Both the position numbers and the translations under genes were made by a program. Positions 2,603-21,382 of a DNA stretch of 41,748 bases are shown here, in pieces. The notes below the pieces were generated by a model. That model was not told the origin of the DNA. It did no database searches and saw nothing but the letters and a program-made list of their open reading frames with translations. This DNA comes from Akkermansia muciniphila (GTDB lineage: Bacteria > Verrucomicrobiota > Verrucomicrobiia > Limisphaerales > JADLHS01), in contig CAMCWI010000007.1 in NCBI GenBank assembly GCA_945882065.1, positions 1-41,748 on the forward strand, in the 5' to 3' direction. Within the stretch, counting starts at the first letter, position 1, and every line of letters starts with the position of its first letter.

Positions 2603-5600
2603 ATGAAAACACATAACGGCAAAGAGAAACTCCCTCATTTTTTCCTGATCTTATTATTCTTCTTCTTTTCCGGGATCACGGGACTTACTTATCAAATTCT
2701 TTGGGTGCGGATGATTGAAAAAGTCATCGGTGGAGCACCGTTTGCGATTTCAATCGTGCTCGCCGTGTTCATGGGCGGTTTGGGCTTGGGCAGTTATCTC
2801 GCGTCGCGATGGGTGGATCGTGCGCCGTCGCCAAATCGGTTGGTCAAAGCTTACGGCTGGCTGGAGATTGGAATTGGCGTCTTCGCTCTCATTATTCCAG
2901 TGTTATTGAAATCCATGGATGGACTTTATGCCTGGGTGTATTCACAGCACCAAGGCGACTGGCTGGTTTTCAACTCCATCACCTGTGTGTTCTGCGGCTT
3001 GGTGTTGATTGTGCCAACCGTGTTCATGGGCGCGACCTTGCCATTGCTTTGCCGATACAGCATCACATCTCTCCATCTTGTCGGTACGCGAACAGGGTTG
3101 TTGTATGGGATCAATACTTTTGGCGCGGCTGCCGGCGCTTTTCTTACGGGGATGATTTGGCTTCCAAAATACGGCATGACAGGAACGCTCTGGCTCGCTG
3201 TCGCCATCAACGGGTGCATTGGGCTGGCGTGTCTTTTGCCCTCGCTTTCAAAACCCGCGCGCGCGTCAAATTTGCCGGGCACTTCCAAGCCGACCCAAAA
3301 AATTCTCCCGGCTCACCCCCAGCCGATGGCTTCCACGCCAAACCTTTATGTGTTCCTGATGATCGTCATGGTTTCGGGCTTTTGTTCCATGGCCTATGAA
3401 GTCATCTGGACGAAACTGCTCAGCCTGATCGTTGGGCCAACCACTTATTCATTCACCGTTGTTCTCGTCACATTCATCACCGGCCTTGCGATTGGCAGCG
3501 TGATCTTTGGCCGGATCGCCGACAAGGTTTCCCGACCTGAGTGGGTTCTGTTGCTGATGCAGATTGTTGCGGCGATCAGCGTATTGCTTTGCAGTCACTT
3601 TCTTGGGGGCAGCCAGTTCTTTTTTGCTAAACTGCTGTTCACGTATCGGGATTCCTTCGTAATGCAGCAGGCAATGAAGGGCATGGCGTTGTTCGCCGTG
3701 ATGTTGATTCCGACGATGTGTTTGGGCGCCGCGTTTCCGCTGGTCGCGAGACTGATCACATCTTCAACGGCAACCATCGGAAGATCGCTAGGCATTGGCT
3801 ATCTCGTGAACACTGTGGGCTGTGTTGCAGGTTCGATTGCCGCCGGTTTTTTAATCATCCCGTTTGTTGGAAAGGAAAAAGGATTGGCGATTGTCGTCGC
3901 GGTGCAATTGCTGTCAGCACTCATTGGAATTGCCTGTTGTGTTTCCCTGCCCCGTCGTCACCGGTGGAGTCTCGCGGCTCTTGTTTTCGCGGGCTTGCTT
4001 GCCTGCTTGGTGATGCCGCGCTGGAATCACCTGCACCTTTCCAGCAGCAAGTATCACCGGCTTGATCAATTCGTTGTTCCCATCCTTCGACATGGTTGGT
4101 GGGAGGCGGCACTTCGAGGAAGTCGCATCCTTGATCAAGTCGAGATGCACACCAAACAGGAGTTGCTCTACTACGGCGAAGGCGTAGGCGGATTCACCAC
4201 CGTGCTGAAATCTCCAGATGTCTATGGAAACAATGTCATTTCAATGGCAAACAGTGGCAAGTTCGACGCCTCAAACGGCGTGGATATGAAAACCCAGGTG
4301 TTGCTGGCGCAAGTGCCCATGCTATTTCATCCCAACCCTGAATTCGTGATGGTGGTGGGACTGGCCAGCGGAATTACAGGAGCAGAAGTGCTCCATTACC
4401 CCACAGTCAAACGTCTCGACATTCTCGAAATCGGAGATCAAGTCCTGGCAGGCAGCAGTTTCTTCACGAATGAAAATAACCGCGTGATCGAAGATCCTAG
4501 AACCGATCTGATCCTTCAAGATGGACGTGCCCATCTGACTCTGACGGATCGCACCTACGATGTCGTGATCGCCGAGCCATCGAATCCCTGGATGGCTGGA
4601 ATGTCGTCCTTGTTCACGGAAGAGTTTTTCCGAACAGTCAAAGGCAGGCTTCGTCCCGGCGGCATTTATGTGCAGTTCATCCACACTTACGAAATTGATT
4701 GGGAATCGTTCACACTTGTGACACGCACCTTTGAAAAGGTCTTTCCGGGAGCAAAAATGATGGCGACGCATCCGGGCCAGACTGGTGCGGATTTTTTGCT
4801 TGTCGGTTTTGCAGACAATACCGTCGGTCTTAATGTCGGAGTAGCTCGTCAGAAAACTGAATCGCTTCGCAAGGCGCACAATTTTCGCCTGACCGATCCG
4901 GCCTTGCTCTATCGCCTCATCGTAACTGAAAATCTGCCCAAGCTTTCAGTCTCTGGGCCGCTGAACACAGATGATCGCCCAATCCTGGAGTTTTCTTCTC
5001 AGCTCGCGCTCTATCGCAACGACGCATCCATATCTCAACGTCTCCAGTCTCAACGAGAAATCTCAGTTCCAACTCAGCGTCTCGTGGACACAATGCGCAA
5101 CGATGTGGATCAACAACTTTCCTATGCGGAGTTCGCCCTGTCGTTGCAGACACCATTCGCTGACATGGTCAGTTTGAACCGAGCGACCGATGCACAAAGA
5201 CAGCGTTATCAGGCCTTGCTTGATGACTATTGCAGGAAATACCCGATAGATAGCGCATTGATGGCAGACGACGCGCTGGCAGCCGCATGGCAACGACAGG
5301 CGGCGACGATCGAATCCAGAATCAAGCCGACAGATGCCGACGCACGGGCGTACATAGCCGACCTCCACTATCACAGCGGTAACAAGGAAAAGGCTTTTTC
5401 GGAATTCAATGCAGTGCTTGCCATGTCTCGTGAGAACATTCGCGCACTGAATGGCCTAGGAATTCTGCACGGTGAAAGAAAAAATTTCCAGGAGGCCATT
5501 CGTTGCTTTGAAAAAGCGCTACAATTGAATCCGAGCCAATTCGAAGCCCATTTGAACATGGGCATCACCTATCTGAACTTCGGGGACAAATTCCGCGCAA

Positions 5601-5683
5601 AGACCAGCTTTGTGAAGGCTTTGAAACTCGATTCCACCTCCGCACTGGCCCGCAAAGGACTGGAACTCAGCTCGAAACCTTAG
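2603..5683 (+). CDS. Fused membrane protein with spermidine-synthase-like domain and C-terminal TPRs
   Basis: The product is 1026 residues. The N-terminal half is polytopic, with two similar blocks each starting with a SGITGLTYQILWVRM / SGFCSMAYEVIWTKL motif at about residues 23 and 255, as in bacterial fused MFS/spermidine synthase proteins. Residues about 570-770 form a Rossmann methyltransferase-like spermine/spermidine synthase domain: VVGLASGITGAEVL for the nucleotide-binding loop, LDILEIGD, LQDGRAHL, and VIAEPSNPWMAGMSSLFTEEFF in place of the polyamine synthase catalytic loop. Residues about 915-1020 carry three TPR-like repeats (YIADLHYHSGNKEKAF, LNGLGILHGERKNFQEAI, LNMGITYLNFGDKFRAKTSF). 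Such proteins are common, but their substrate is unclear and true polyamine synthesis is not implied. The start is ATG with no good Shine-Dalgarno. The gene lies between two copies of one 3' gene end plus terminator. Confidence 0.8.
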   Translation: MKTHNGKEKLPHFFLILLFFFFSGITGLTYQILWVRMIEKVIGGAPFAISIVLAVFMGGLGLGSYLASRWVDRAPSPNRLVKAYGWLEIGIGVFALIIPVLLKSMDGLYAWVYSQHQGDWLVFNSITCVFCGLVLIVPTVFMGATLPLLCRYSITSLHLVGTRTGLLYGINTFGAAAGAFLTGMIWLPKYGMTGTLWLAVAINGCIGLACLLPSLSKPARASNLPGTSKPTQKILPAHPQPMASTPNLYVFLMIVMVSGFCSMAYEVIWTKLLSLIVGPTTYSFTVVLVTFITGLAIGSVIFGRIADKVSRPEWVLLLMQIVAAISVLLCSHFLGGSQFFFAKLLFTYRDSFVMQQAMKGMALFAVMLIPTMCLGAAFPLVARLITSSTATIGRSLGIGYLVNTVGCVAGSIAAGFLIIPFVGKEKGLAIVVAVQLLSALIGIACCVSLPRRHRWSLAALVFAGLLACLVMPRWNHLHLSSSKYHRLDQFVVPILRHGWWEAALRGSRILDQVEMHTKQELLYYGEGVGGFTTVLKSPDVYGNNVISMANSGKFDASNGVDMKTQVLLAQVPMLFHPNPEFVMVVGLASGITGAEVLHYPTVKRLDILEIGDQVLAGSSFFTNENNRVIEDPRTDLILQDGRAHLTLTDRTYDVVIAEPSNPWMAGMSSLFTEEFFRTVKGRLRPGGIYVQFIHTYEIDWESFTLVTRTFEKVFPGAKMMATHPGQTGADFLLVGFADNTVGLNVGVARQKTESLRKAHNFRLTDPALLYRLIVTENLPKLSVSGPLNTDDRPILEFSSQLALYRNDASISQRLQSQREISVPTQRLVDTMRNDVDQQLSYAEFALSLQTPFADMVSLNRATDAQRQRYQALLDDYCRKYPIDSALMADDALAAAWQRQAATIESRIKPTDADARAYIADLHYHSGNKEKAFSEFNAVLAMSRENIRALNGLGILHGERKNFQEAIRCFEKALQLNPSQFEAHLNMGITYLNFGDKFRAKTSFVKALKLDSTSALARKGLELSSKP

Positions 5684-5971: not shown

Positions 5972-6739
5972 TTAATAACCAAAGAGTTTCTGGCGGGCGA
6001 GCGGAGACATGGTTTCCAGATCGAGTAGCGTCAGATAATCAATCGTCTTGAATTGCCGATCCAGAGCGGGAGGACCGCAGATTGTTGCGCCAAGACTCAG
6101 ATAGGCGCGGAGGAGTTTTGGGATTTTGACCGGCTCGGCGGATAGCTGGGTCAGTGGGCAATCATGCGACGCCAGAGGACGTGTGCGCCAGGCGATCGGT
6201 GCGAGATGTTTCCGACACATGTCGGCGTAAGCCGATGCACCGACAGCGGGGTCCTGCGTGGTCATTGAACTGCAACCGATGAGATAGCGCGCGCTGCGTT
6301 GCCTCGCAAAATCAATCACGCCCTTCCACAAAAGACCTAGGACGACGAGATTCCGATGTTGTGGATGAACGCAGGCACGACCGAGTTCGATCATCTCGGA
6401 GCGATACGGTTCAAAAACTTCAAACTCGAATTCCTGCGCCGAGTAATAACCGAGCGTCACGGCAGTGTTGCCTGTCTGCATCCGATAAGTGCCGACGATC
6501 GTGGCCGAGGGCATATGTTCGACCAGTAGATGTTCGCAAACAGAATCAAACGCGTCTTCATCACGACCTGTGGCATAGGATTTTTCGAGACCCTCGTTCA
6601 GTTCGAGGTTAAAGATTTGAAAACGTAATTCTTGCGCGGCGTGAACCTCATCAAGGCTCTTCGCAAGACGCGTCGTGTATTGCAGGGTTGAATTGACCAC
6701 CAACCGCACCGGTTCGAGCGTGTCTGTGTTTAATTTCAC
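5972..6739 (-). CDS. GNAT-type N-acyltransferase of the OlsB / ornithine lipid family
   Basis: This 255-residue protein has the Acetyltransf_5/OlsB pattern. AQELRFQIFNLELNEG is followed by a DEDAFDSVCEHLLVE block, ATIVGTYRM, MIELGRACVHPQHRNLVVLGLLW as the acyl-donor binding core, RYLIGCSSM, and PKLLRAYLSLGATICGPPALD near the end. OlsB enzymes transfer a 3-hydroxyacyl group from acyl carrier protein to the amino group of ornithine, the first step to phosphorus-free ornithine lipids; related family members act on glycine or are hemolysin-like. The start is GTG at 6737-6739. It is transcribed divergently from the glycosyltransferase-PHP gene at 6915. A PlsC-like acyltransferase, the type needed for the second step (OlsA), occurs at 33789 but is not linked. 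Substrate specificity cannot be read from the sequence. Confidence 0.8.
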   Translation of the reverse strand: MKLNTDTLEPVRLVVNSTLQYTTRLAKSLDEVHAAQELRFQIFNLELNEGLEKSYATGRDEDAFDSVCEHLLVEHMPSATIVGTYRMQTGNTAVTLGYYSAQEFEFEVFEPYRSEMIELGRACVHPQHRNLVVLGLLWKGVIDFARQRSARYLIGCSSMTTQDPAVGASAYADMCRKHLAPIAWRTRPLASHDCPLTQLSAEPVKIPKLLRAYLSLGATICGPPALDRQFKTIDYLTLLDLETMSPLARQKLFGY

Positions 6740-6806: not shown

Positions 6807-6914
6807 GAGCCGAATCTAACACGACGGCAACAGCCGGGATGGATTTGTTTTCGATTAGTCACTTGCTCGCCACGAATCCGTAACGTCGTCTCCCAATGTT
6901 GTTCACCACAACGC

Positions 6915-8975
6915 GTGAAAAAAATACTCATTCTTACCGCCGGGTTCGGGGACGGCCACAACGCCGCTGCACGCAATGTGCAGGAAGCGTTGGAGCAAAC
7001 TTCGCCGGAAGTGGAAGTCACCGTCGCCGATCTCTACGAACGCAGCTATAAAAAGCTCAACTCCATCGCCAAGAAAGCCTACCTCGGCGCGGTGCGTTAC
7101 GCCCCACAACTCTGGGCGGGATTCTTCAAGCTCGCGGATCGCTCGCCGTGGCTGACGGACGGTCGCGGTCTCGCAGGTTTGCAGAAAAATCTCGCGCAAC
7201 TCATCGAGGAGACACAGCCCGATTGCGTCGTCAGCACCTATCCAGCATACGGGCAATTGATCGAGTCTCTGTATCGCGATCACTGCGAACGCCCCTTCCG
7301 TTTCGTCACCATCATCACGGATGCGCGTGCAGTGAACTCCCTTTGGTATCGGGCCGGGAGCGACCGCTTCGTGGTCTGTGACGAAGAGACGGCGGAAATC
7401 TTGAGGGAGAATGGCGTCGAGAAAAACTCGATTGCCGCACTCGGCTTCCCGGTCAGTCCGATGTTCGCCGTGCCTCAGAAGGATTTACCCAAACGACCGT
7501 CGCTCGGCACGCCACTGCGTGTGCTTTATGCCATCAACACCGGCAAAAAGAAATGTGGCAAGGCCATTGACCGCTTGCTGGAAATCCCCAACGTCGAACT
7601 CACCGTCTCAGTAGGGCGTTATTCCGACCTTAAAGAAAAACTCGCACGGCGGGCGCAGGAGAATGATGGACGACTGCATCTGCTCGGCTGGACAAACCAG
7701 ATGCCGCAACTCCTCATGCGCAGCCACGTTGTCATCGGCAAGGCAGGTGGCGCATCTGTGCAGGAAGCCATCGCGGCAAAGTGCCCGATGATCATCAATC
7801 AAGTCATCCCCGGCCAGGAGGAGGGCAACGCCAACATCATCCTCGACTCGAACATCGGCGCAGTGGCCGACGGCGATAAGGAAGTCGCCAGTTGGGTGGA
7901 ACGCCTCGCCGAAGATGGCGGCGAACTCTGGACACAGTGGCGCAATCAGTTGGAAAAAGTAAGCCGTCCGGACGCCACGAGTCGAATCGCCCAGCTCGTG
8001 CTGGATGAATGTGATGTCGCCAACAAAGTATCGCGCCCAGAAAAATTCCCCGCACTCCCCACGACTATCAACGGCGGCAGAACCTTTATTCCGGAACAAT
8101 CCGGGATACTTACGATGGCCATGCGCGCTCAGATCGCTCGCAACAAGACCGGCTCGCTGCTCTGCGACTTCCATGTCCACACGAATTATTCCGACGGCAG
8201 ATTGACCGTATCTGAAGTTGTGGACTTCTACGGTGTGCGGGGTTTCGATTGCATCTGCATCACGGATCACTGGACGGATACACGCCGGTTGATCGGAAAG
8301 CTGGCAAGGCTGACACCTTTGACGTTGAGCTACGACCAGATCGAGGAATACTTTGAAGTGATCGCGCGCGAAGCGAAGCGCGCGTGGCGTCGGTACGGAA
8401 TGTTGGTGATGACAGGACTAGAATTCAACAAAGACGGCCCGACAAAAAAATCTTCCGCACACCTGCTGGGAATCGACCTCGAAATGCCCATCAGCCCGCG
8501 CTTGGATCTGCTGGAGACGATTACCCGCATCCATTCGCAAGGTGGACTGGCCGTGGCAGCGCATCCGCACCTGATGAAATCTGAGTTCGCAAAGGAGACG
8601 CTATACCTCTGGGAAAACCAGGAAAAGTTCGCCCCGGTGATTGACGCTTGGGAGATTGCGAACCGGAATAATCTCTTCACGCCAGTTAGCCAGCGTCGGC
8701 TGCCGTTTCTGGCAAACAGTGATTTCCACAAACCCAAACATATCTACTCGTGGAAAACGCTGTTGAACTGCGAAAAGAACGCAGACGCAATCAAAGAGTG
8801 CATCCGACGCAACGAGAACGTTTCCATCACGCTCTATCGCGGTGAAGAAGCCCCGGCGGCTACGGATATTCCCGCGAGTATCCAAAGGCAACCCGGTCTG
8901 CCGCTCGGGGTGGATACGGCGGCGCGGCAGTTGACAGAGACTGGCGCGGACGAAAGGCTTGTGTTACGCGGCTGA
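6915..8975 (+). CDS. MGDG-synthase-like glycosyltransferase fused to a PHP phosphoesterase domain
   Basis: The 686-residue product has two parts. Residues 1 to about 370 match the MGDG synthase / processive diacylglycerol glycosyltransferase type: ILTAGFGDGHNAAARNVQEAL at the N-terminus, DCVVSTYPAYGQLIESLY, FVTIITDARAVNSLWY, and the GT28 nucleotide-sugar site VIGKAGGASVQEAIAAKCPM with a following PGQEEGNA. Residues about 415-640 are a PHP domain with apparently complete metal ligands: DFHVHTNYSDG (near residue 420), CITDHW, TGLEFN, AAHPH (near 550) and NSDFHKP (near 603). PHP domains hydrolyse phosphoesters, for example in histidinol phosphatase and nucleoside bisphosphate phosphatases. The start is GTG at 6915; no Shine-Dalgarno is visible. 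No stop or frame change separates the halves, so the fusion is real in this sequence. The divergent OlsB-like neighbour supports a role in lipids, but the PHP substrate is unknown. Confidence 0.8.
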   Translation: MKKILILTAGFGDGHNAAARNVQEALEQTSPEVEVTVADLYERSYKKLNSIAKKAYLGAVRYAPQLWAGFFKLADRSPWLTDGRGLAGLQKNLAQLIEETQPDCVVSTYPAYGQLIESLYRDHCERPFRFVTIITDARAVNSLWYRAGSDRFVVCDEETAEILRENGVEKNSIAALGFPVSPMFAVPQKDLPKRPSLGTPLRVLYAINTGKKKCGKAIDRLLEIPNVELTVSVGRYSDLKEKLARRAQENDGRLHLLGWTNQMPQLLMRSHVVIGKAGGASVQEAIAAKCPMIINQVIPGQEEGNANIILDSNIGAVADGDKEVASWVERLAEDGGELWTQWRNQLEKVSRPDATSRIAQLVLDECDVANKVSRPEKFPALPTTINGGRTFIPEQSGILTMAMRAQIARNKTGSLLCDFHVHTNYSDGRLTVSEVVDFYGVRGFDCICITDHWTDTRRLIGKLARLTPLTLSYDQIEEYFEVIAREAKRAWRRYGMLVMTGLEFNKDGPTKKSSAHLLGIDLEMPISPRLDLLETITRIHSQGGLAVAAHPHLMKSEFAKETLYLWENQEKFAPVIDAWEIANRNNLFTPVSQRRLPFLANSDFHKPKHIYSWKTLLNCEKNADAIKECIRRNENVSITLYRGEEAPAATDIPASIQRQPGLPLGVDTAARQLTETGADERLVLRG

Positions 8976-9124: not shown

Positions 9125-12100
9125 TTACTTTCGCAGCCGGTAGAACCGATAATCATTCGTCATCGGCACCGTCACCGCGAGTTGACCGTTGGTTAACACC
9201 ACGCTTTGTGTCGCGTATGTCCAACTTGCTGGATTCCCTACAGTAGACGTTTCTTCGAGCCGAAATCCAGTTGCTTCAACGGTCCAGCGAAGCAATGCAT
9301 TGCTGCCAGAGCGAGTAAGCGTTAAGCCGGGCACTGTCATGATACCTGGCGAACCGATTTCACCGGCGGCGTTGACGGCGACAAATGCTCCGTTGATTCC
9401 AACCGCGCTTAACGTTGTGACATTCGTGTTGTTGCGTCCCGCCGCGTTGTCAAATGTTGCGTATGGCCCCGTCGGCGAGGCTCCGAACGAAACGCTGGCC
9501 ATGAGAACGTTGTTGCTGCTGTAGATGTTCACCGCATCTCCGCCAGTCCCCAAGCCGACGCCCGAACCCGTGTAGTTGCCGATCTGCAGTCCGGCTGGCG
9601 GCGTTGCGCCAAACCAATTCGACCGGAAAACCGTTTGGGCATTAACTTGGTTTGTGAATTCGATGAATATCACAGATTCGCCCGGAGCGATGTTGGTGAT
9701 CCCGTTGAGTGCCACTGCTCCTGCTGGCGATTGCGAGCTGTCGTCCATCTTCCAACTTGTGATGTCTATCGGTGTCGCCCCCGTATTCGATAGCTCGAAC
9801 CAATCTCCACCAACTGGACTATTTCCACTGGACCAAGGAGCGATTTCTGAGATGACGATCTTACCGCCTGTGCCGGGGGAGCCGATCTCATTCGTGCTGT
9901 TCACGGCAACAAAGGCGCTGTGAACATCGACCGAGCTGAGTTGCAAGATGGTGGCGTCATTGAGTCCGAATGAATTGTCAAAAGTTCCAAGCGGCGTGAT
10001 GGTTGGCGAACTCCCAAAAGCAACGCTGGCGCGAAGCTTTCCTGTGCTGTCAAACAGATTGACCTGATCGCCGCCCGTGCTCAGACCACCAGCTCCGGTG
10101 TAACTGCCGATCTGGAGGCCAGCAGGGGGATTCACCCCGAACCAGTTTGAAAGGAACAGTGGTGATTTGGTGGCCAGTGCCGCGGTATCTATGAAAACTA
10201 CCGCTTCGCCGGGAGCGATGTTGGTTACGCCAAGCAAGGGTCCTGCTGAAGCAAACGATTTGCTGTCGTCGTCAATTTTCCAGCCCGTGATATCAATCGA
10301 GTTCGCCGAGGTGTTGATGACTTCGAACCAGTCGGCGGCCACGGGGCTGTTGCCGCTGGACCACGGCGTCACTTCGGAAATGATCAGCCCGCCGATGCTG
10401 CCGGGGGAGCCGATTTCGTTGTAGTCGTTGACGGCGATAAACGCGCCATAAACGCGAGGCACGCTCAGGCGGGTGAGGTTCGAGTTTGTTCCATTGATGC
10501 CTGCCGCATTGTCGAAGGTCGCAAATCGAGGTCCCGGTGATGCTGCGCCAAAAACCACGCGCGCCTGAATAGTGCCGTTGGTGTCGAAGAGGCAAACACC
10601 ATCACCGCCTGTACCCAAACCGATTCCTGAGCCCGTGTAGCTTCCGACCTGGAGGTTGGTTGGTGAGTTCGCCCCAAACCATGTGTTCAAGAACGTCGCC
10701 TTGGTCGCGGTGAGATTAGCGGTCTCGATGAAAATAACCGATTCACCCGGAGCGATGTTGGTGACACCGTTTAAAGCTACGGCTGAGCCCAGTGTGGCTG
10801 AACTATCGTCCATCTTCCAGCCTGTAAGGTTTAATGTATTGGTACTAGTATTGGAGACTTCAAACCAGTCCCCGCCGATCGGGCTATTGCCGCTCGACCA
10901 TGGGGCAACTTCTGAAACGATCAAGCCGTTGACTGAACTCGCTGGCGTTTCATTGACCACATCGGTCACCGCGAGTGTGAAGGTGTTCGTAGCATCCGGC
11001 GCGGTGCCGACTGTGACGTCGTCCACGTTGATGGTGACCGTGTAGTTAGTTTTGGTTTCAAAATCGAGTACTGTGCCCGGCTTGATTTGAAGAGCCGTGC
11101 CGGTGATCTGAAAGGACGCAGCGTCCGGGCCGCTTACGGTGAGAAGATTTGTCCCCAAACCTTCATCCACGACAAAGAGATCAGCGACTTTGATCGCGGC
11201 AGCAGTGCTAGTGTTTTCCGCGATAGAATTGACCGTATTGGTGAGGAGCAAGGCCGTGGGTGGTTGATTCGGCAGTGCTGAAGGCGCATAAACCCAAAGT
11301 TCAGGATAATCAATGTTGCCGCCGCCGTTTTCATTCACCACGTAGAGAATGCCATTAGTATCCATCGTGAGACCTTCATGCTGCTGGTCGGGCGCGGTGA
11401 TGGTGCTGCCGAAATCGGCGACGATTTGCAGCGTGCTGTGGATATTGCCCGAACGATCCACATTCAGGACTCGCGCGTTTTCCTGACTGATCAAGATGAG
11501 GTGGCTAGCTTGGGGTTGGTTGGTCAAACCGGGGATGTTTGACAAAGCAAACACGTCAGCCAGATCAGTTACGCCGAGCAAAGCCGGATCGAACAAATTG
11601 GTGGAGTTTTCCGCTGTGGGCGAACCGTTACTCGCGGTTCCGGCGCTGAAATCAACGGCGGTCTGGAAAACACCGATCGGAGTGACTTCCTTGACGCAGA
11701 TGAATTCGCCAGTCAGTGGATCATACGACATTCCCTCAGTGCCTGTGTTGGGCGAAAATGTGCCGATATCCACGGTCTGGGCATTGGCCCGCGATAGCAC
11801 CGTGCCAGCGGCATACGTGAACTTGACGAGCTGTCTGTCACGTTCTTCGCTGAAAACAAACTGGCCACCACCGATATAGGCGATGCCTTCGGTGTCATAG
11901 AAATCCGTGCCCTGCGGACTGCTGCCCAAGGCAAGCGTCATAGTATCAATCAACGCACCCGTCTTGGATACCTGAGTGACCGAGCGACCACCGTCACCAA
12001 CGATGAACAAAGTGTCCGTATCCCAGTTATAGGCCACGCCGGAGGCTTCTTGACACAAAAGATTAGTGCTGTTCGGAGGCGTCGTGCGCGTCGGTTCGGG

Positions 12101-12289
12101 CAAACTGTAGCGGCCGATCCGGACGTATGTGGACAAATCCACGTTGGTGATCGCAGACGCGTTTGCGCTTCCCAAGATCAGGCCCGCGATGATCGCAGAG
12201 TAAAATTGGATTGCGGAAAAAATTCCTCGAGCTTGGCGACTGTTGTAACTAGTTTGTTTGTTCGCATTCATTTGTTTGTTGGTATTCAT
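9125..12289 (-). CDS. Large secreted protein: SdiA-regulated/phytase-like propeller, cadherin-like domain, three lamin-tail domains
   Basis: This protein has 1054 residues. The N-terminus carries a signal peptide (hydrophobic segment near 28-42, ANASA cleavage region), though ATG codons in a MNTNKQMNANKQ repeat make the exact start uncertain. Residues about 75-345 look like the SdiA-regulated / esterase-like phytase propeller (EASGVAYNWDTDTLFIVGDGG, DTEGIAYIGGGQFVFSEERD, HEGLTMDTNGILYVVNENGGG). A cadherin-like segment follows (IAENTSTAA, GPDAASFQI). Three lamin-tail domains start near residues 456, 634 and 809, each opening with a SEVAPWSSGNSP-like block and containing GWKxDDxS and NIAPGExVxFI. 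The last 60 residues are the shared verrucomicrobial C-terminal module. Lamin-tail domains often accompany extracellular nucleases or phosphatases, so a role in extracellular phosphate release is possible but unproven. Pho-box-like repeats lie 52 bp upstream. Confidence 0.75.
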   Translation of the reverse strand: MNTNKQMNANKQTSYNSRQARGIFSAIQFYSAIIAGLILGSANASAITNVDLSTYVRIGRYSLPEPTRTTPPNSTNLLCQEASGVAYNWDTDTLFIVGDGGRSVTQVSKTGALIDTMTLALGSSPQGTDFYDTEGIAYIGGGQFVFSEERDRQLVKFTYAAGTVLSRANAQTVDIGTFSPNTGTEGMSYDPLTGEFICVKEVTPIGVFQTAVDFSAGTASNGSPTAENSTNLFDPALLGVTDLADVFALSNIPGLTNQPQASHLILISQENARVLNVDRSGNIHSTLQIVADFGSTITAPDQQHEGLTMDTNGILYVVNENGGGNIDYPELWVYAPSALPNQPPTALLLTNTVNSIAENTSTAAAIKVADLFVVDEGLGTNLLTVSGPDAASFQITGTALQIKPGTVLDFETKTNYTVTINVDDVTVGTAPDATNTFTLAVTDVVNETPASSVNGLIVSEVAPWSSGNSPIGGDWFEVSNTSTNTLNLTGWKMDDSSATLGSAVALNGVTNIAPGESVIFIETANLTATKATFLNTWFGANSPTNLQVGSYTGSGIGLGTGGDGVCLFDTNGTIQARVVFGAASPGPRFATFDNAAGINGTNSNLTRLSVPRVYGAFIAVNDYNEIGSPGSIGGLIISEVTPWSSGNSPVAADWFEVINTSANSIDITGWKIDDDSKSFASAGPLLGVTNIAPGEAVVFIDTAALATKSPLFLSNWFGVNPPAGLQIGSYTGAGGLSTGGDQVNLFDSTGKLRASVAFGSSPTITPLGTFDNSFGLNDATILQLSSVDVHSAFVAVNSTNEIGSPGTGGKIVISEIAPWSSGNSPVGGDWFELSNTGATPIDITSWKMDDSSQSPAGAVALNGITNIAPGESVIFIEFTNQVNAQTVFRSNWFGATPPAGLQIGNYTGSGVGLGTGGDAVNIYSSNNVLMASVSFGASPTGPYATFDNAAGRNNTNVTTLSAVGINGAFVAVNAAGEIGSPGIMTVPGLTLTRSGSNALLRWTVEATGFRLEETSTVGNPASWTYATQSVVLTNGQLAVTVPMTNDYRFYRLRK

Positions 12290-12340: not shown

Positions 12341-12367
12341 GTGACGGCGATGTGACAAACGCGTTAC
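12341..12367 (-). promoter_or_regulatory. Three-unit Pho-box-like repeat facing the gene at 12289
   Basis: GTGAC (12341), GTGAC (12352) and GTTAC (12363) are spaced exactly 11 bp apart. On the minus strand, the direction of the downstream gene, they read GTAAC, GTCAC, GTCAC. The array ends 52 bp before the ATG of the propeller/lamin-tail protein. Confidence 0.45.
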
Positions 12368-16333: not shown

Positions 16334-16397
16334 CAGGAATGTTGCTTTCAGATTCCAGTTGTAACGCTCACAATCGTACCGGTAGTTTTTATTGGTC

Positions 16398-18551
16398 GTG
16401 AATACATCGGAATTTAAGCCGGAACACTTCATCAATCGCGAGTTAAGCTGGCTGGAATTTAACCAGCGCGTGCTCGACGAAGCGTTGGATGAATCCAACC
16501 CCTTGCTCGAACGACTCAAGTTTTTCACCATCGTCAGCTCGAACCTCGATGAGTTCTTCGAGGTGCGCGTCGCAGGATTGAAACAGGAGATCGAGAGCGG
16601 CCAGGCGGAGCGCAGTCTCGATGGGCTTACATCTTCTGAAACCTTGCGCGCCGTCATCCGCCGCGTACGCCGCATGGTTTCCGATCAATACGCCTGTTGG
16701 AGGAGCGACCTGGAGCCCGCACTCGCTGGAAATCGCATCCGCATCCTTCCGATCAAGGAACTCACCAAGAGCGATCTCACATGGCTGGAGGTCTTTTACT
16801 GGCAACAAGTCCGTCCCGTACTCACGCCGCTTGCACTTGATCCCGCGCATCCGTTCCCGCAACTGCTCAACAAATCTCTCAATCTCATCGTGCGTCTGGA
16901 GATGAAGAAGAACGGCGAACAACACAAACACATGGCCGTGGTACAATTGCCCGCCATCCTGCCGCGCCTCGTCCAATTGCCCCGCCGCGATGGTCGCCGC
17001 GATTACGTCTATCTCGGCCAATTGATCGGCCATTTCCTCGCAGATATTTTTCCGGGAACAACCATCCTCGGCTGGTGGCCGTTCCGCGTCACGCGCAACA
17101 GCGAGTTGTATATTGATGAAGAGGAAGAGAACAATCTGCTCAAAGCCGTCGAGGCAGAATTACACAACCGGCGACGCGGCGATGCCGTGCGCTTGGAGAT
17201 TGACCGGCAATGTCCCGCAAAAATCTACGATGTGCTCCTCAAGACACTGCGGCTGACTGCGGATGATCTTTACCTGATTGACGGACCGCTGAACGTCACC
17301 CGGCTTCTGGCACTCTATAAGGGCGATCATTCACCCGAACTTCGCGACGCGTCATTCGTCGCACCTGTTGCCAAAACATTACGCGGCCGTGAGAACATTT
17401 TTGCCGCCATCCGCGAGGGCGACATCCTGCTGCATCATCCCTACGAACATTTCGACAGCGTCGTGGGATTTCTCGAAGAATCCGCGCGCGACCGCGACGT
17501 GCTGGCCATCAAGATGACGTTGTATCGCACCGGCGGCGATGAACGCATCGTCGGCGCATTGATGGACGCGGTGAAGAATGGGAAACAGGTCACGGTAGTG
17601 GTGGAACTTCGTGCACGATTCGATGAAGCGAACAACATCCAGTGGGCGCGGCGGCTTGAAGAGAATGGCGTCCACGTCGTTTACGGACTCGTCGGTTACA
17701 AGATTCACGCAAAGGCGACTCTGGTTGTCCGTCGCGAGCGCGAACATATCCGCCGTTACGTTCATCTCGCCACCGGCAATTACAACGCTACCACGGCGCG
17801 ACTTTACACCGACCTCGGTCTGCTCACTTGCCGCCCCGATTTCGGCGAAGACATCACCAATCTTTTCAACCTGCTCACCGGCATCTGCCAGTTTCAAGGA
17901 ATGAAGAAGCTCGTGATCGCGCCGTTTGATCTGCACCGGCGATTGCTGGAAATGATCGAGCGCGAAACCACTAACGCACGACACGGTCTCCCGGCGCGCA
18001 TCATCGCCAAGATCAATTCACTTGCCGATCAGACACTCATCGAAGCTCTTTATCGCGCATCACAAGCGGGTGTGAAGATCGAACTCATCGTTCGCGGCGT
18101 TTGCTGCCTGCGTCCGGGATTGCGCAGCGTCAGCGAAAACATCACCGTGCGAAGCATTGTGGATCGCTTCCTAGAACACCCTCGCATTTATTATTTTGAG
18201 AACGGCTGCGTGCCGGAAGTTTTCATCGGCAGCGCAGACTGGTTGCCGAGAAATCTTTTCCGCCGCATCGAAACCGTGTTCCCCATCATGGACGGCATCG
18301 TTCGCGAGCGTGTCATTGGAGAAATCCTTGCGACCACACTCGCTGACAATTTGAAGGCGCGGATGCTCTTTGCCGATGGCAGCTATCACCGCGCACCACG
18401 CACCGCCAATGACGAACCACGTCGCAGCCAGACGGAGTTCATTCAACTGGCCACGACCGACAATCTTGCGGCGGGCAAGAGTCCAAAACCCCGCACAAAA
18501 TATCCCCGGGTAAAACTCAAGACATCGCCGTTCACGTTGTCCAAGGATTAG
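16398..18551 (+). CDS. ppk1: Polyphosphate kinase 1
   Basis: PPK1 polymerises the terminal phosphate of ATP into polyphosphate, reversibly. The protein is about 717 residues, the usual family length. It opens with the N-domain signature HFINRELSWLEFNQRVLDEA and SNLDEFFEVRVAG; later come DPAHPFPQLLNKS, LLHHPYEHFDSVVGFLEESA, IKMTLYRTGG, GYKIHAKATL with the autophosphorylated His (about 437) and LIVRGVCCLRPG, then RFLEHPRIYYFENG with the second conserved His (about 594). GTG at 16398 is preferred, giving MNTSEFKPEHF; TTG at 16392 in the same frame is an alternative. The 58-64 bp before it contain TGTAAC and TGTTGC 11 bp apart (16329 and 16340), a weak Pho-box-like pair. It is followed after 3 bp by sixA, so the two are probably cotranscribed. 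Confidence 0.97.
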   Translation: MNTSEFKPEHFINRELSWLEFNQRVLDEALDESNPLLERLKFFTIVSSNLDEFFEVRVAGLKQEIESGQAERSLDGLTSSETLRAVIRRVRRMVSDQYACWRSDLEPALAGNRIRILPIKELTKSDLTWLEVFYWQQVRPVLTPLALDPAHPFPQLLNKSLNLIVRLEMKKNGEQHKHMAVVQLPAILPRLVQLPRRDGRRDYVYLGQLIGHFLADIFPGTTILGWWPFRVTRNSELYIDEEEENNLLKAVEAELHNRRRGDAVRLEIDRQCPAKIYDVLLKTLRLTADDLYLIDGPLNVTRLLALYKGDHSPELRDASFVAPVAKTLRGRENIFAAIREGDILLHHPYEHFDSVVGFLEESARDRDVLAIKMTLYRTGGDERIVGALMDAVKNGKQVTVVVELRARFDEANNIQWARRLEENGVHVVYGLVGYKIHAKATLVVRREREHIRRYVHLATGNYNATTARLYTDLGLLTCRPDFGEDITNLFNLLTGICQFQGMKKLVIAPFDLHRRLLEMIERETTNARHGLPARIIAKINSLADQTLIEALYRASQAGVKIELIVRGVCCLRPGLRSVSENITVRSIVDRFLEHPRIYYFENGCVPEVFIGSADWLPRNLFRRIETVFPIMDGIVRERVIGEILATTLADNLKARMLFADGSYHRAPRTANDEPRRSQTEFIQLATTDNLAAGKSPKPRTKYPRVKLKTSPFTLSKD

Positions 18552-18554
18552 CCC

Positions 18555-19070
18555 ATGAATCTTTTCATCCTACGTCACGGCATCGCTGTTGAACGTGATC
18601 CAAAAAGTTTCCCCGATGATTCCAAGCGCCCGCTCACATTGAAGGGCGAAGACCGCATCCGACTTGTTTGCGATGCGATTCAAGGGCTTGATGTGACGTT
18701 CGATCAGATTTTATTCAGTCCGTTTCTTCGCGCCAGACAGACGGCAGACATCATCGCCTCTGGACTGAACTTGAGAAACATCCTCAGCTTCCGGGATGAA
18801 TTGAAACCCGGCGGAGATTTCAAGGCCATCGTACGCCAGATCAACTTGCTGCGCCCCGCCCCGGAAAATGTTTTGCTCGTCGGCCACGAACCCGACCTAA
18901 GCCATCTCATCTCTCAATTGATCTCCGGGCACGGCGAAGCATTTATTGATCTGAAAAAGGGCGGCTTCGCCAAACTGGAAATCACAGAGCGTCTCCGCCC
19001 AGCCCGCTGTGCCACGCTCAACTGGTTGCTGACTCCAAAACAAATGGCACTAATGGTTGCATCGCGTTAG
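18555..19070 (+). CDS. sixA: SixA-type phosphohistidine phosphatase (histidine phosphatase family)
   Basis: This 171-residue protein starts with the phosphoglycerate-mutase-like signature LFILRHGIA and continues with RPLTLKGEDRI, ILFSPFLRARQTADII and VLLVGHEPDLSHLI, which supply the catalytic RHG histidine, the Arg pocket and the second His. SixA in E. coli dephosphorylates histidine phosphotransfer domains and the nitrogen phosphotransferase protein. Members of this branch are often found next to polyphosphate and phosphate genes. It begins 3 bp after ppk1 and precedes the DUF47 gene by 64 bp, so it belongs to the same operon. Confidence 0.85.
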   Translation: MNLFILRHGIAVERDPKSFPDDSKRPLTLKGEDRIRLVCDAIQGLDVTFDQILFSPFLRARQTADIIASGLNLRNILSFRDELKPGGDFKAIVRQINLLRPAPENVLLVGHEPDLSHLISQLISGHGEAFIDLKKGGFAKLEITERLRPARCATLNWLLTPKQMALMVASR

Positions 19071-19134
19071 CGACTGCTGGCGCACTGGAGTTTTTGTTGG
19101 ACTTTCTCCGCTGCGTTGGCGATTCCTGTCGCAC

Positions 19135-19764
19135 ATGTTTTCCCTACAAAAACTTTTCGGCAAAGGTGACAAGTTCAACGAACTACTCGCAGCAGCAGCT
19201 CAGGAGGCTCACGAAAGCGTCCGTCTCGTCATTCAATTGATGCAGTCGCCACGCGATACCAAAAAGTTCGACGACCTCGTACTCGCGCGCCGCAAGGAAA
19301 AGAAAATCTCCGAACAAATCAGCGAGGAACTCGTCCAGACCTTCGTCACGGGGCTTGAGCGTGAGGATATTGAAGACCTTGCCCGTGGTCTTTACAAAAT
19401 CCCCAAGAGCGCGGAGAAACTTGCCGAACGTTTCATGATGGCTGGTAAACATATTGAGGGGATTGATTTCTCCAAACAGGCCGAGATGATGGAGAAAGCC
19501 ACCGACGCCGTTCATGCGATGGTCAAGCAACTGGATTCTCTCGACGATCTGGAAAAAATCAAAGCCCTCAACGACAAACTCCAATACGTCGAGGGCGAGG
19601 CCGATAAGGTTATGAACGATCTGCTCCGCGATCTTTACAGCGGTAAATATGACGCCCTCCGCGCCATCGTCCTGCGCGACATCTACGAACTGATGGAAAA
19701 GGTCATTGATCGTTCCCGCGATGTCGGCAATGTGATGATGCACATCGTTCTCAAAAATTCCTAA
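19135..19764 (+). CDS. DUF47 / PhoU-like regulator of the PiT transporter
   Basis: The product is 209 residues from ATG 19135 (MFSLQKLFGKGDKFNELL); a TTG at 19057 inside sixA would only add a non-family leader. The sequence is almost entirely helical with long charged heptad-like segments, typical of PhoU-like DUF47 proteins (AAAQEAHESVRLVIQLM, RRKEKKISEQISEELVQTFV, TGLEREDIEDLARGLYKI, LQYVEGEADKVMNDLLRDLY). DUF47 proteins are nearly always encoded just before a PiT phosphate permease and are thought to gate or tune it. Here the spacing to the PiT gene is 7 bp, so translation is probably coupled. Confidence 0.9.
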   Translation: MFSLQKLFGKGDKFNELLAAAAQEAHESVRLVIQLMQSPRDTKKFDDLVLARRKEKKISEQISEELVQTFVTGLEREDIEDLARGLYKIPKSAEKLAERFMMAGKHIEGIDFSKQAEMMEKATDAVHAMVKQLDSLDDLEKIKALNDKLQYVEGEADKVMNDLLRDLYSGKYDALRAIVLRDIYELMEKVIDRSRDVGNVMMHIVLKNS

Positions 19765-19771
19765 CCCACCG

Positions 19772-21382
19772 ATGACCCTCATACTGATTGTCATCTTCGT
19801 GGCCCTGGTGTTTGAATACATCAACGGCTTTCATGATACGGCCAACTCCATCGCCACAGTTGTTTCAACGAAAGTTCTCTCCCCTCGCCAGGCGATAATT
19901 CTTGCTGCCTTCACCAACCTGCTTGGTGCCATGTGGGGCACTGCCGTCGCCAAGACAATCGCCTCCGGATTGGTGGACGCGCAATTTGTCACCTCACAGG
20001 TCATTGTCTGCGCGCTGCTCGGAGCGATTGTCTGGAATCTACTGACGTGGTGGTTCGGGTTGCCGTCCAGTTCGTCACACGCATTGGTGGGCGGACTTTG
20101 CGGGGCATGTCTTGCCGCCGCCAACAGTTGGGGTGTCATTATCTGGAGCGTGCCCGGCAAAGATCATTGGTGGGAAGGCAAAGGCATCCTCTGGAAAGTC
20201 GTTGTGCCCATGATCACTTCCCCCATCGCCGGTCTCACCATCGGCTTCTTGGTAATGGGCCTCCTATATTTCCTCCTGCGCAACTGGCGACCCATGAAAG
20301 TCAACCGCGTCTTCGGCAAACTCCAACTCTTCAGCGCCGCCTATATGGGATTCAGCCACGGCACGAACGACGCCCAGAAAACAATGGGCATCATCTTCCT
20401 CGCACTAGTCGCTGGGACTGTCAGCGGCACATTTGATTCCCCCAGCGGCTCGTTGAGCTTCTTCTCCTCGCCAGAACACGTAGGCAGCGTGCCATCCGCG
20501 TATGTGGAACTCGGACGGCTGGATCAACAGGCGGGCAACTTTTCCGCCGCTGCGAAACACTTCGAGAAAGCTTCCGCCAGCGACAAGACTGGAAAATACT
20601 TTTACGCTCAAGCCTTGGAAAAAGGTGAAGGCGTGAAAGCTGATCCGAAACGCGCGGCCAAACTACTCAAGGAACTTGCGGACGCAAAATTCGACGCCAC
20701 ATCCATCAAACCCGGCGCACCCGTTGCCAGAAAGTTTAAAGACATCCCCGAAGCTCCCGAAGCGGCGGCGGCATGGTTGAAGGAACGCGTGGACAAAGGC
20801 AATGCCGACAGCATGGTCGCGCTCGGTGTCGCCTATCTCAAAGGTCAGGGCGTAGCCAAAGACGAGACCACCGCGCGCCAGTTGTTTGAACGCGCCGTGA
20901 AATTGAATCACCCCGCCGCCTGCTACAACCTCGGCTTGATGCACCTCAATGGCAACGGCGTCACCAAAGACGAGAAACAAGCCGCAGCCGATTTCAAACA
21001 GTGCATCCAAAAGGAAGCCATCCCGATCTGGATCAAGATTGCGTGCGCCCTGACCATGTGCGCTGGCACCGCTGCTGGCGGTTGGCGCATCATCAAAACC
21101 CTCGGCCACAAAATGGTGAAGCTCCATCCCGTCCATGGATTCGCCGCCGAAGCCACCGGCGCAACGGTGTTGATGACTGCCGCACATTTCGGAATGCCCG
21201 TGTCCACCACGCACGCCATCACCACTTCCATCATGGGCGTTGGCTGCGCCAAAGGATTAAACGCACTCAAGATGAACGTCGTCAAACGCATCCTATGGGC
21301 GTGGGTGTTGACCATTCCCGCAAGCGGCATCGTTGCCTACGGCCTAGTGCGCTTATGCAAATCCTGCGGTTGGATGGGGTGA
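19772..21382 (+). CDS. PiT-family inorganic phosphate transporter with an inserted Sel1/TPR-like repeat domain
   Basis: PiT permeases move phosphate with H+ or Na+. The N-terminal half shows LVFEYINGFHDTANSIATVV, WWFGLPSSSSHALVGGL and GFSHGTNDAQKTMGIIFLAL; the C-terminal half shows IACALTMCAGTAAGGWRIIK, HPVHGFAAEATGA and the second signature HFGMPVSTTHAITTSIMGVG. Between them, at about residues 212-414, about 200 soluble residues replace what is normally a short loop. This insert contains helical repeats with Sel1 character: YVELGRLDQQAGNFSAAAKH, YAQALEKGEGVKADPKRAAK, ALGVAYLKGQGVAKDETTAR and NLGLMHLNGNGVTKDEKQAA. The frame is open throughout at 536 residues, against roughly 330-420 for usual bacterial PiT. 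It ends 26 bp before the convergent pyrophosphatase. The insert is probably cytoplasmic and could bind a partner such as DUF47; that is inference. Confidence 0.93.
   Translation: MTLILIVIFVALVFEYINGFHDTANSIATVVSTKVLSPRQAIILAAFTNLLGAMWGTAVAKTIASGLVDAQFVTSQVIVCALLGAIVWNLLTWWFGLPSSSSHALVGGLCGACLAAANSWGVIIWSVPGKDHWWEGKGILWKVVVPMITSPIAGLTIGFLVMGLLYFLLRNWRPMKVNRVFGKLQLFSAAYMGFSHGTNDAQKTMGIIFLALVAGTVSGTFDSPSGSLSFFSSPEHVGSVPSAYVELGRLDQQAGNFSAAAKHFEKASASDKTGKYFYAQALEKGEGVKADPKRAAKLLKELADAKFDATSIKPGAPVARKFKDIPEAPEAAAAWLKERVDKGNADSMVALGVAYLKGQGVAKDETTARQLFERAVKLNHPAACYNLGLMHLNGNGVTKDEKQAAADFKQCIQKEAIPIWIKIACALTMCAGTAAGGWRIIKTLGHKMVKLHPVHGFAAEATGATVLMTAAHFGMPVSTTHAITTSIMGVGCAKGLNALKMNVVKRILWAWVLTIPASGIVAYGLVRLCKSCGWMG

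Follow-up and report, generated by a model that had tools for sequence, protein, structure and literature searches.

The window (the whole stretch of 41,748 nucleotides analysed here) encodes a single protein that joins a glycosyltransferase (GT) of the MGDG-synthase/UgtP type to a complete PHP phosphoesterase. We consider it probable (roughly 0.6) that this protein is a bifunctional, phosphate-starvation-induced lipid-remodelling enzyme, in which the PHP domain stands in non-homologously for the phospholipase PlcP and supplies the GT with diacylglycerol. The computed basis of this reading is the fusion itself, the folds of both halves, the conservation of the metal ligands, a repeat common to pstS and to operons that pair PlcP with a GT, the phosphorus-gene neighbourhoods, and the near-absence of PlcP from genomes with the fusion.

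PlcP makes diacylglycerol, and glycosyltransferases of the fusion's type glycosylate diacylglycerol. For the fusion we infer a scheme that extends from PhoB binding, through the PHP substrate, the membrane location, the sugar and the diacylglycerol acceptor, to any channelling between the halves. Under phosphate shortage, a PhoB-type regulator would bind a repeat of 11-bp period upstream of the gene and switch it on. The PHP domain, as a trinuclear metallophosphoesterase acting at the cytoplasmic face of the membrane, would then strip a glycerophospholipid of its phosphate-bearing head group, or phosphatidate of its phosphate, to leave diacylglycerol, to which the GT28-type half would add a hexose from a nucleotide sugar. 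A single protein might in this way both free phosphorus and make the replacement glycolipid, a task that falls elsewhere to PlcP and a glycosyltransferase.

The original prediction of a glycolipid-type GT fused without a break to a complete PHP domain is borne out by Pfam, by structural matches and by the 686-codon open frame, the start of which matches homologues whose alignments begin at residue 1. Domain searches of the two halves return the families in the order described, with MGDG_synth (aa 15-180, E 2.8e-25, 89.8 bits against a Pfam gathering score of 25) and Glyco_tran_28_C (aa 226-294, 22.4 against 22 bits) followed by PHP (aa 418-512, E 1.5e-6, 29 against 26.4 bits), the last of these models spanning only the first portion of the fusion's PHP domain. 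The entire length of aa 411-651 matches Thermotoga maritima TM0559 (2ANU, E 3e-60), the closest solved structure, with which it shares ~43% identity, the fold and the motifs; TM0559 differs in being a stand-alone protein of no known function. The best solved relatives of the GT half are 9WDE, a processive diacylglycerol beta-glucosyltransferase, and Arabidopsis MGD1. UgtP/processive diacylglycerol glucosyltransferase and plant MGD1 share its fold and motifs; they differ in being unfused and of low identity. In the AlphaFold model of the fusion protein (pLDDT 83.5, pTM 0.80), the PHP half superposes on 2ANU with a target TM of 0.91 and the GT half on MGD1 with a target TM of 0.80-0.81. Against the NCBIfam equivalog for diglucosyl diacylglycerol synthase (PRK13609) the GT half scores 154.5 bits, and because this is below the 500-bit cut-off the GT's product cannot be named from that model; the PHP half likewise scores 50.3 bits against the CehA/McbA metallohydrolase model NF038032, below the 80-bit NCBIfam cut-off. 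With both the fold and the full set of metal ligands, assigned by analogy with known PHP enzymes, the second half is a PHP phosphoesterase and not a homologue of the calcineurin-type PlcP, of which it can be at most an analogue.

Table 1. Features of the window and of the comparison loci (positions are those of the window unless a locus is given).
Feature	Position	Strand	Remarks
OlsB-like N-acyltransferase	5972-6739	-	Divergent from fusion; best NCBIfam matches are OlsB models, below cut-offs
Pho-box-like triple direct repeat	6858-6884	+	GTCAC-N6-GCCAC-N6-GTAAC, 11-bp period; starts 57 bp before fusion start codon
GT-PHP fusion gene	6915-8975	+	686 aa, GTG start, uninterrupted frame
Glycosyltransferase half, MGDG-synthase/UgtP type	6915-8024	+	aa 1-370; H15 and GG/E284/QE..N donor-site motifs; from Pfam, NCBIfam, 9WDE, 4WYI, Foldseek to MGD1, conservation
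Interdomain linker	8025-8144	+	aa 371-410; middle with low pLDDT
PHP phosphoesterase half	8145-8867	+	aa 411-651; nine invariant putative metal ligands
SdiA-regulated/phytase-like esterase	9125-12289	-	Three lamin-tail domains; own perfect box upstream
Pho-box-like repeat, 15/15	12341-12367	-	Upstream of the 9125-12289 gene
Polyphosphate kinase 1 (ppk1)	16392-18551	+	
SixA-like histidine phosphatase, PhoU_div (DUF47) protein, PHO4-family phosphate transporter	18555-21382	+	
PlcP-like gene with another glycosyltransferase and a GH1-family gene as neighbours; class-V aminotransferase near contig end	L157 (contig C104): 2423-5581 and 11045-11980		
GT4-PlcP fusion, Akkermansiaceae-like	L149: 1618-3651; L150: 3694-5649; L151: 2677-4791		

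The fusion is carried by dozens of genomes of the class Verrucomicrobiae. Since the 78 relatives found in a genome scan are fused across both halves wherever the contig is long enough, the arrangement is not a chance one. The named records among its carriers point to Limisphaerales/Pedosphaera and Methylacidiphilales within the Verrucomicrobiota, with records of Methylacidiphilum and Methylacidimicrobium among them; names such as Klebsiella or Akkermansia muciniphila on some of the metagenome-assembled genomes look like mislabels. In our surveys for the PHP half, which covered the Verrucomicrobiota, it occurred in 8 genomes of a 288-genome phylum sample, always inside the fusion frame, and in 73 genomes of a 384-genome class sample, where 70 of the 74 matches belonged to frames no shorter than 639 aa. 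The remaining four, in frames of 117, 300, 372 and 498 aa, include some at contig ends or starts. Thus the two halves were not found dispersed in unrelated operons, and no clear stand-alone copy of the PHP half was seen in either sample; plasmids gave three weak matches only (26-28% identity) and viral contigs none. The tree of the GT half is compatible with a single origin of the fusion or several (one clade not rejected, p-AU 0.57).

Nor are the metal ligands of the PHP half lost among relatives. H420, H422, D427, H452, E503, H516, H550, D603 and H605 are identical in all 76 aligned fusion sequences, and the PHP half is more conserved overall than the GT half. On the GT side, E284 is present in all 76 and H15 of the N-terminal GxGH motif in 71, the window's protein having both. 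In one five-member clade (L089, L091, L092, L094, L104) the GT active site is degenerate, with H15 and the GG motif lost, yet all PHP ligands are retained; elsewhere in the five genomes there is also a distant paralogue of the GT. Since its ligands are kept even next to a degenerate GT, the PHP half appears to have a value of its own, without the fused GT.

The original prediction also placed the protein in phosphorus-sparing lipid synthesis. This is supported by its neighbours, by the repeat upstream of it and by the partners of its PHP-less relatives. A phosphate or ornithine-lipid gene lies within the flanks of 12 of 79 fusion loci (693 kb in all), where about one would be expected by chance, an estimate that assumes a handful of such clusters per genome and has no exact background; most of the loci have no recognised phosphorus gene in their flanks. 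The pst genes and phoU lie near the fusion in three arrangements (L055, L062, L086), and phoU at L051. ppk1 is nearby at five loci (L032, L039, L082, L093 and the window), as is OlsB (L052, L064, L090, L093 and the window), in four cases together with OlsA. OlsB functions in the synthesis of phosphorus-free ornithine lipids.

Upstream of the fusion genes, we found three GT[CA]AC half-sites with an 11-bp period, the period of classical Pho boxes, in most cases beginning 45-80 bp ahead of the start codon. Of the 71 fusion upstreams, 43 score at least 12/15, where shuffled sequences would give 0.9 and upstreams behaving like those of other genes at the same loci about 6; the count is partly circular, as the motif was defined on the fusion upstreams themselves. 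The pstS upstreams of fusion genomes provide an independent test: 7 of 30 reach 12 (0.9 expected), and 5 of 30 have two exact half-sites at the 11-bp period (0.06 expected). Of the other periods tried, only 7 gave a case, a single one. The window's own genome has such an exact pair before pstS (L170). The box also precedes pstS in L055 and L062 and OlsB in L064 and L090, and in the window itself the repeat (GTCACTTGCTCGCCACGAATCCGTAAC), between the fusion and the divergent OlsB-like gene, scores 14/15. A candidate box of the kind expected for Pho control in PlcP-Agt type remodelling is therefore present at the level of sequence. Fusion genes of the Methylacidiphilaceae have repeat scores no better than chance, and a search upstream of the fusion with the E. 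coli Pho-box consensus yielded no convincing site. A separate enrichment of TTCAC/GTGAA upstream was dropped as evidence, being due in part to TTATTCACA repeats of one clade. Paired repeats of this type, 11 bp apart, lie at about -50 of the fusion gene in the five members with a degenerate GT; they resemble the DnaA-box consensus, and we take them to be possibly DnaA boxes or a diverged Pho-box variant.

Other families of the same class hold the nearest relatives of the GT that lack a PHP half (~33-42% identity). In Opitutaceae-like genomes (this label and Akkermansiaceae-like below are tentative, guessed from gene content), the PHP-less GT adjoins a calcineurin-type phosphoesterase, and a GT4 glycosyltransferase or a diacylglycerol-kinase-like gene is frequently present as well. 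This phosphoesterase is 46.7% identical to a PlcP-type protein borne on a P. aeruginosa plasmid, where it is followed by a glycosyltransferase and then a gene named CyaB, the order of PA3219-PA3218. PA3219 acts as phospholipase in the PlcP-Agt pathway of P. aeruginosa, and the phosphoesterase-glycosyltransferase pair PA3219/PA3218 belongs to a phosphate-stress glycolipid pathway (PMC8528852). From its gene order we identify the plasmid locus as a copy of PA3219-PA3217, and from similarity we assign the phosphoesterase beside the PHP-less GT to the PlcP family; LpxH, considered as an identity for it, was rejected at 39 bits against a cut-off of 134. Box scores of 12-14 were found before 6 of 9 operons that pair a PHP-less GT with PlcP (L128, L130, L134, L138, L140, L141), compared with 8-10 before GT genes with no PlcP neighbour. 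Akkermansiaceae-like genomes carry PlcP as the C-terminal part of a fusion with a GT4 glycosyltransferase. This parallel, convergent arrangement of glycosyltransferase and phosphoesterase suggests repeated selection for coupling the two steps.

PlcP and the fusion have largely complementary distributions. PlcP was found in 95 of 288 genomes of the phylum sample, among them 43 of the 54 class genomes with a strong PHP-less homologue of the GT, but in only 1 of 57 genomes with the fusion (1 of 8 in the phylum sample and none of 49 further ones). For 1/57 against 43/54 the Fisher p is 4e-19, on the assumption that genomes are independent, which in fact they are not. Because the GT tree places only one or two independent evolutionary contrasts behind the pattern, we regard it as suggestive and not as proof. 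The two are not strictly exclusive, since a PlcP-like gene (39% identity) is present in the window's own genome, on contig C104, the GC content of which gives no sign of contamination. Near the end of the same contig is a class-V aminotransferase, perhaps PhnW-like. PlcP has been reported missing in verrucomicrobial methanotrophs (PMC9239053); these carry the fusion, as the Methylacidiphilum and Methylacidimicrobium records show.

The repeat, the phosphorus-gene neighbours, the pairing of PHP-less GTs with PlcP, the rarity of PlcP alongside the fusion and the GT4-PlcP fusion therefore argue for phosphorus-sparing remodelling, leaving the question of what the PHP domain does within it. The original prediction had offered either the supply of a dephosphorylated lipid or the removal of a phosphate-bearing by-product, of which we favour the supply role over by-product removal. 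That the domain is specifically a lipid-acting phosphoesterase (a phospholipase C or phosphatidate phosphatase), replacing PlcP non-homologously in a one-protein phospholipid-to-glycolipid converter, we put at even odds. To our knowledge it would be the first lipid-acting phosphoesterase in its superfamily, the characterised PHP enzymes that we know of acting on soluble phosphoesters and not on lipids. Were by-product removal its function, the glycolipid would still be phosphorus-free and under Pho control, and the PHP domain would hydrolyse the nucleoside diphosphate released by the GT, driving transfer and recovering phosphate. A fused UDP hydrolase would be equally compatible with Pho regulation, and the PHP proteins with solved structures and names (weak matches) include nucleases and phosphoesterases of soluble substrates. 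However, PHP-less GTs pair with PlcP, a lipid phosphoesterase, and not with a nucleotidase, PlcP is missing from nearly all genomes with the PHP fusion, and because the PHP ligands persist in the GT-degenerate clade the partner's by-product cannot be the sole substrate there; we consider hydrolysis of the by-product unlikely.

Retention of the PHP domain in that clade would suit a phosphatase or nuclease that scavenges phosphate from small soluble phosphoesters in general, is fused to the GT only as both are needed in phosphate starvation and hands nothing over to it, and the distant characterised relatives are indeed soluble-substrate enzymes. A free scavenger, however, needs no fusion, and there is no clear stand-alone PHP copy in the genomes searched, while PlcP has entered a parallel fusion with a glycosyltransferase, so that we find a scavenging role improbable. 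It is also conceivable, though we give it very little credence, that the acceptor of the GT is another lipid or a polyprenyl carrier, with the PHP domain trimming the product's phosphate and the link to phosphorus sparing being regulatory only. MurG and other glycosyltransferases have the same fold, and the score against the diacylglycerol-synthase family (154 against an equivalog cut-off of 500 bits) leaves room for this; but in sequence and in fold the GT matches diacylglycerol glycosyltransferases best (9WDE, MGD1), and the GT's relatives pair with PlcP, a producer of diacylglycerol, and with a diacylglycerol-kinase-like gene.

A converter of phospholipid to glycolipid, our preferred reading, has its closest known counterpart in PlcP-Agt lipid remodelling, described in Sinorhizobium, SAR11, Phaeobacter, P. 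aeruginosa and Methylosinus (PMC4796936, PMC8528852, PMC9239053). The two are alike in combining a glycosyltransferase with a phosphoesterase, in Pho-box control, predicted for the fusion, and in a phosphorus-free lipid context. They differ in that the fusion has PHP instead of calcineurin-type PlcP, a GT of the GT28/MGDG type instead of the GT4-group Agt, and one polypeptide. Nearer in sequence are the Opitutaceae-like GT4-PlcP-GT28 operons (L130, L131), in which the GT28 protein is 38-39% identical to the fusion's GT half and a Pho-box-like repeat lies upstream (13/15 in L130), although the proteins are separate and PlcP takes the place of PHP. The GT4-PlcP fusion shares the order of an N-terminal glycosyltransferase and a C-terminal metallophosphoesterase, whereas both of its halves come from families other than those of the window's fusion. 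Among open-access papers we found no description of a GT-PHP fusion. The logic of remodelling is already known, and the PHP component and the fusion appear to be new.

Genomic and metagenomic surveys of lipid remodelling in response to phosphorus limitation commonly take plcP as their marker. If the fusion does PlcP's job, a large group of Verrucomicrobiota (soil, freshwater and methanotrophic) escapes them, and there is a testable answer to how the PlcP-less verrucomicrobial methanotrophs and many of their relatives could remodel their lipids. The PHP superfamily would also gain a role in membrane lipids.

Three other genes of the window were noted. The esterase at 9125-12289, preceded by the 15/15 repeat, is a candidate phosphate-scavenging enzyme. 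The frame of the PHO4-family transporter (19772-21382, + strand) also contains Sel1 repeats, an unusual combination, and 2603-5683 (+ strand) encodes a 1026-aa MFS/spermidine-synthase-like protein with TPR repeats at its C-terminus.
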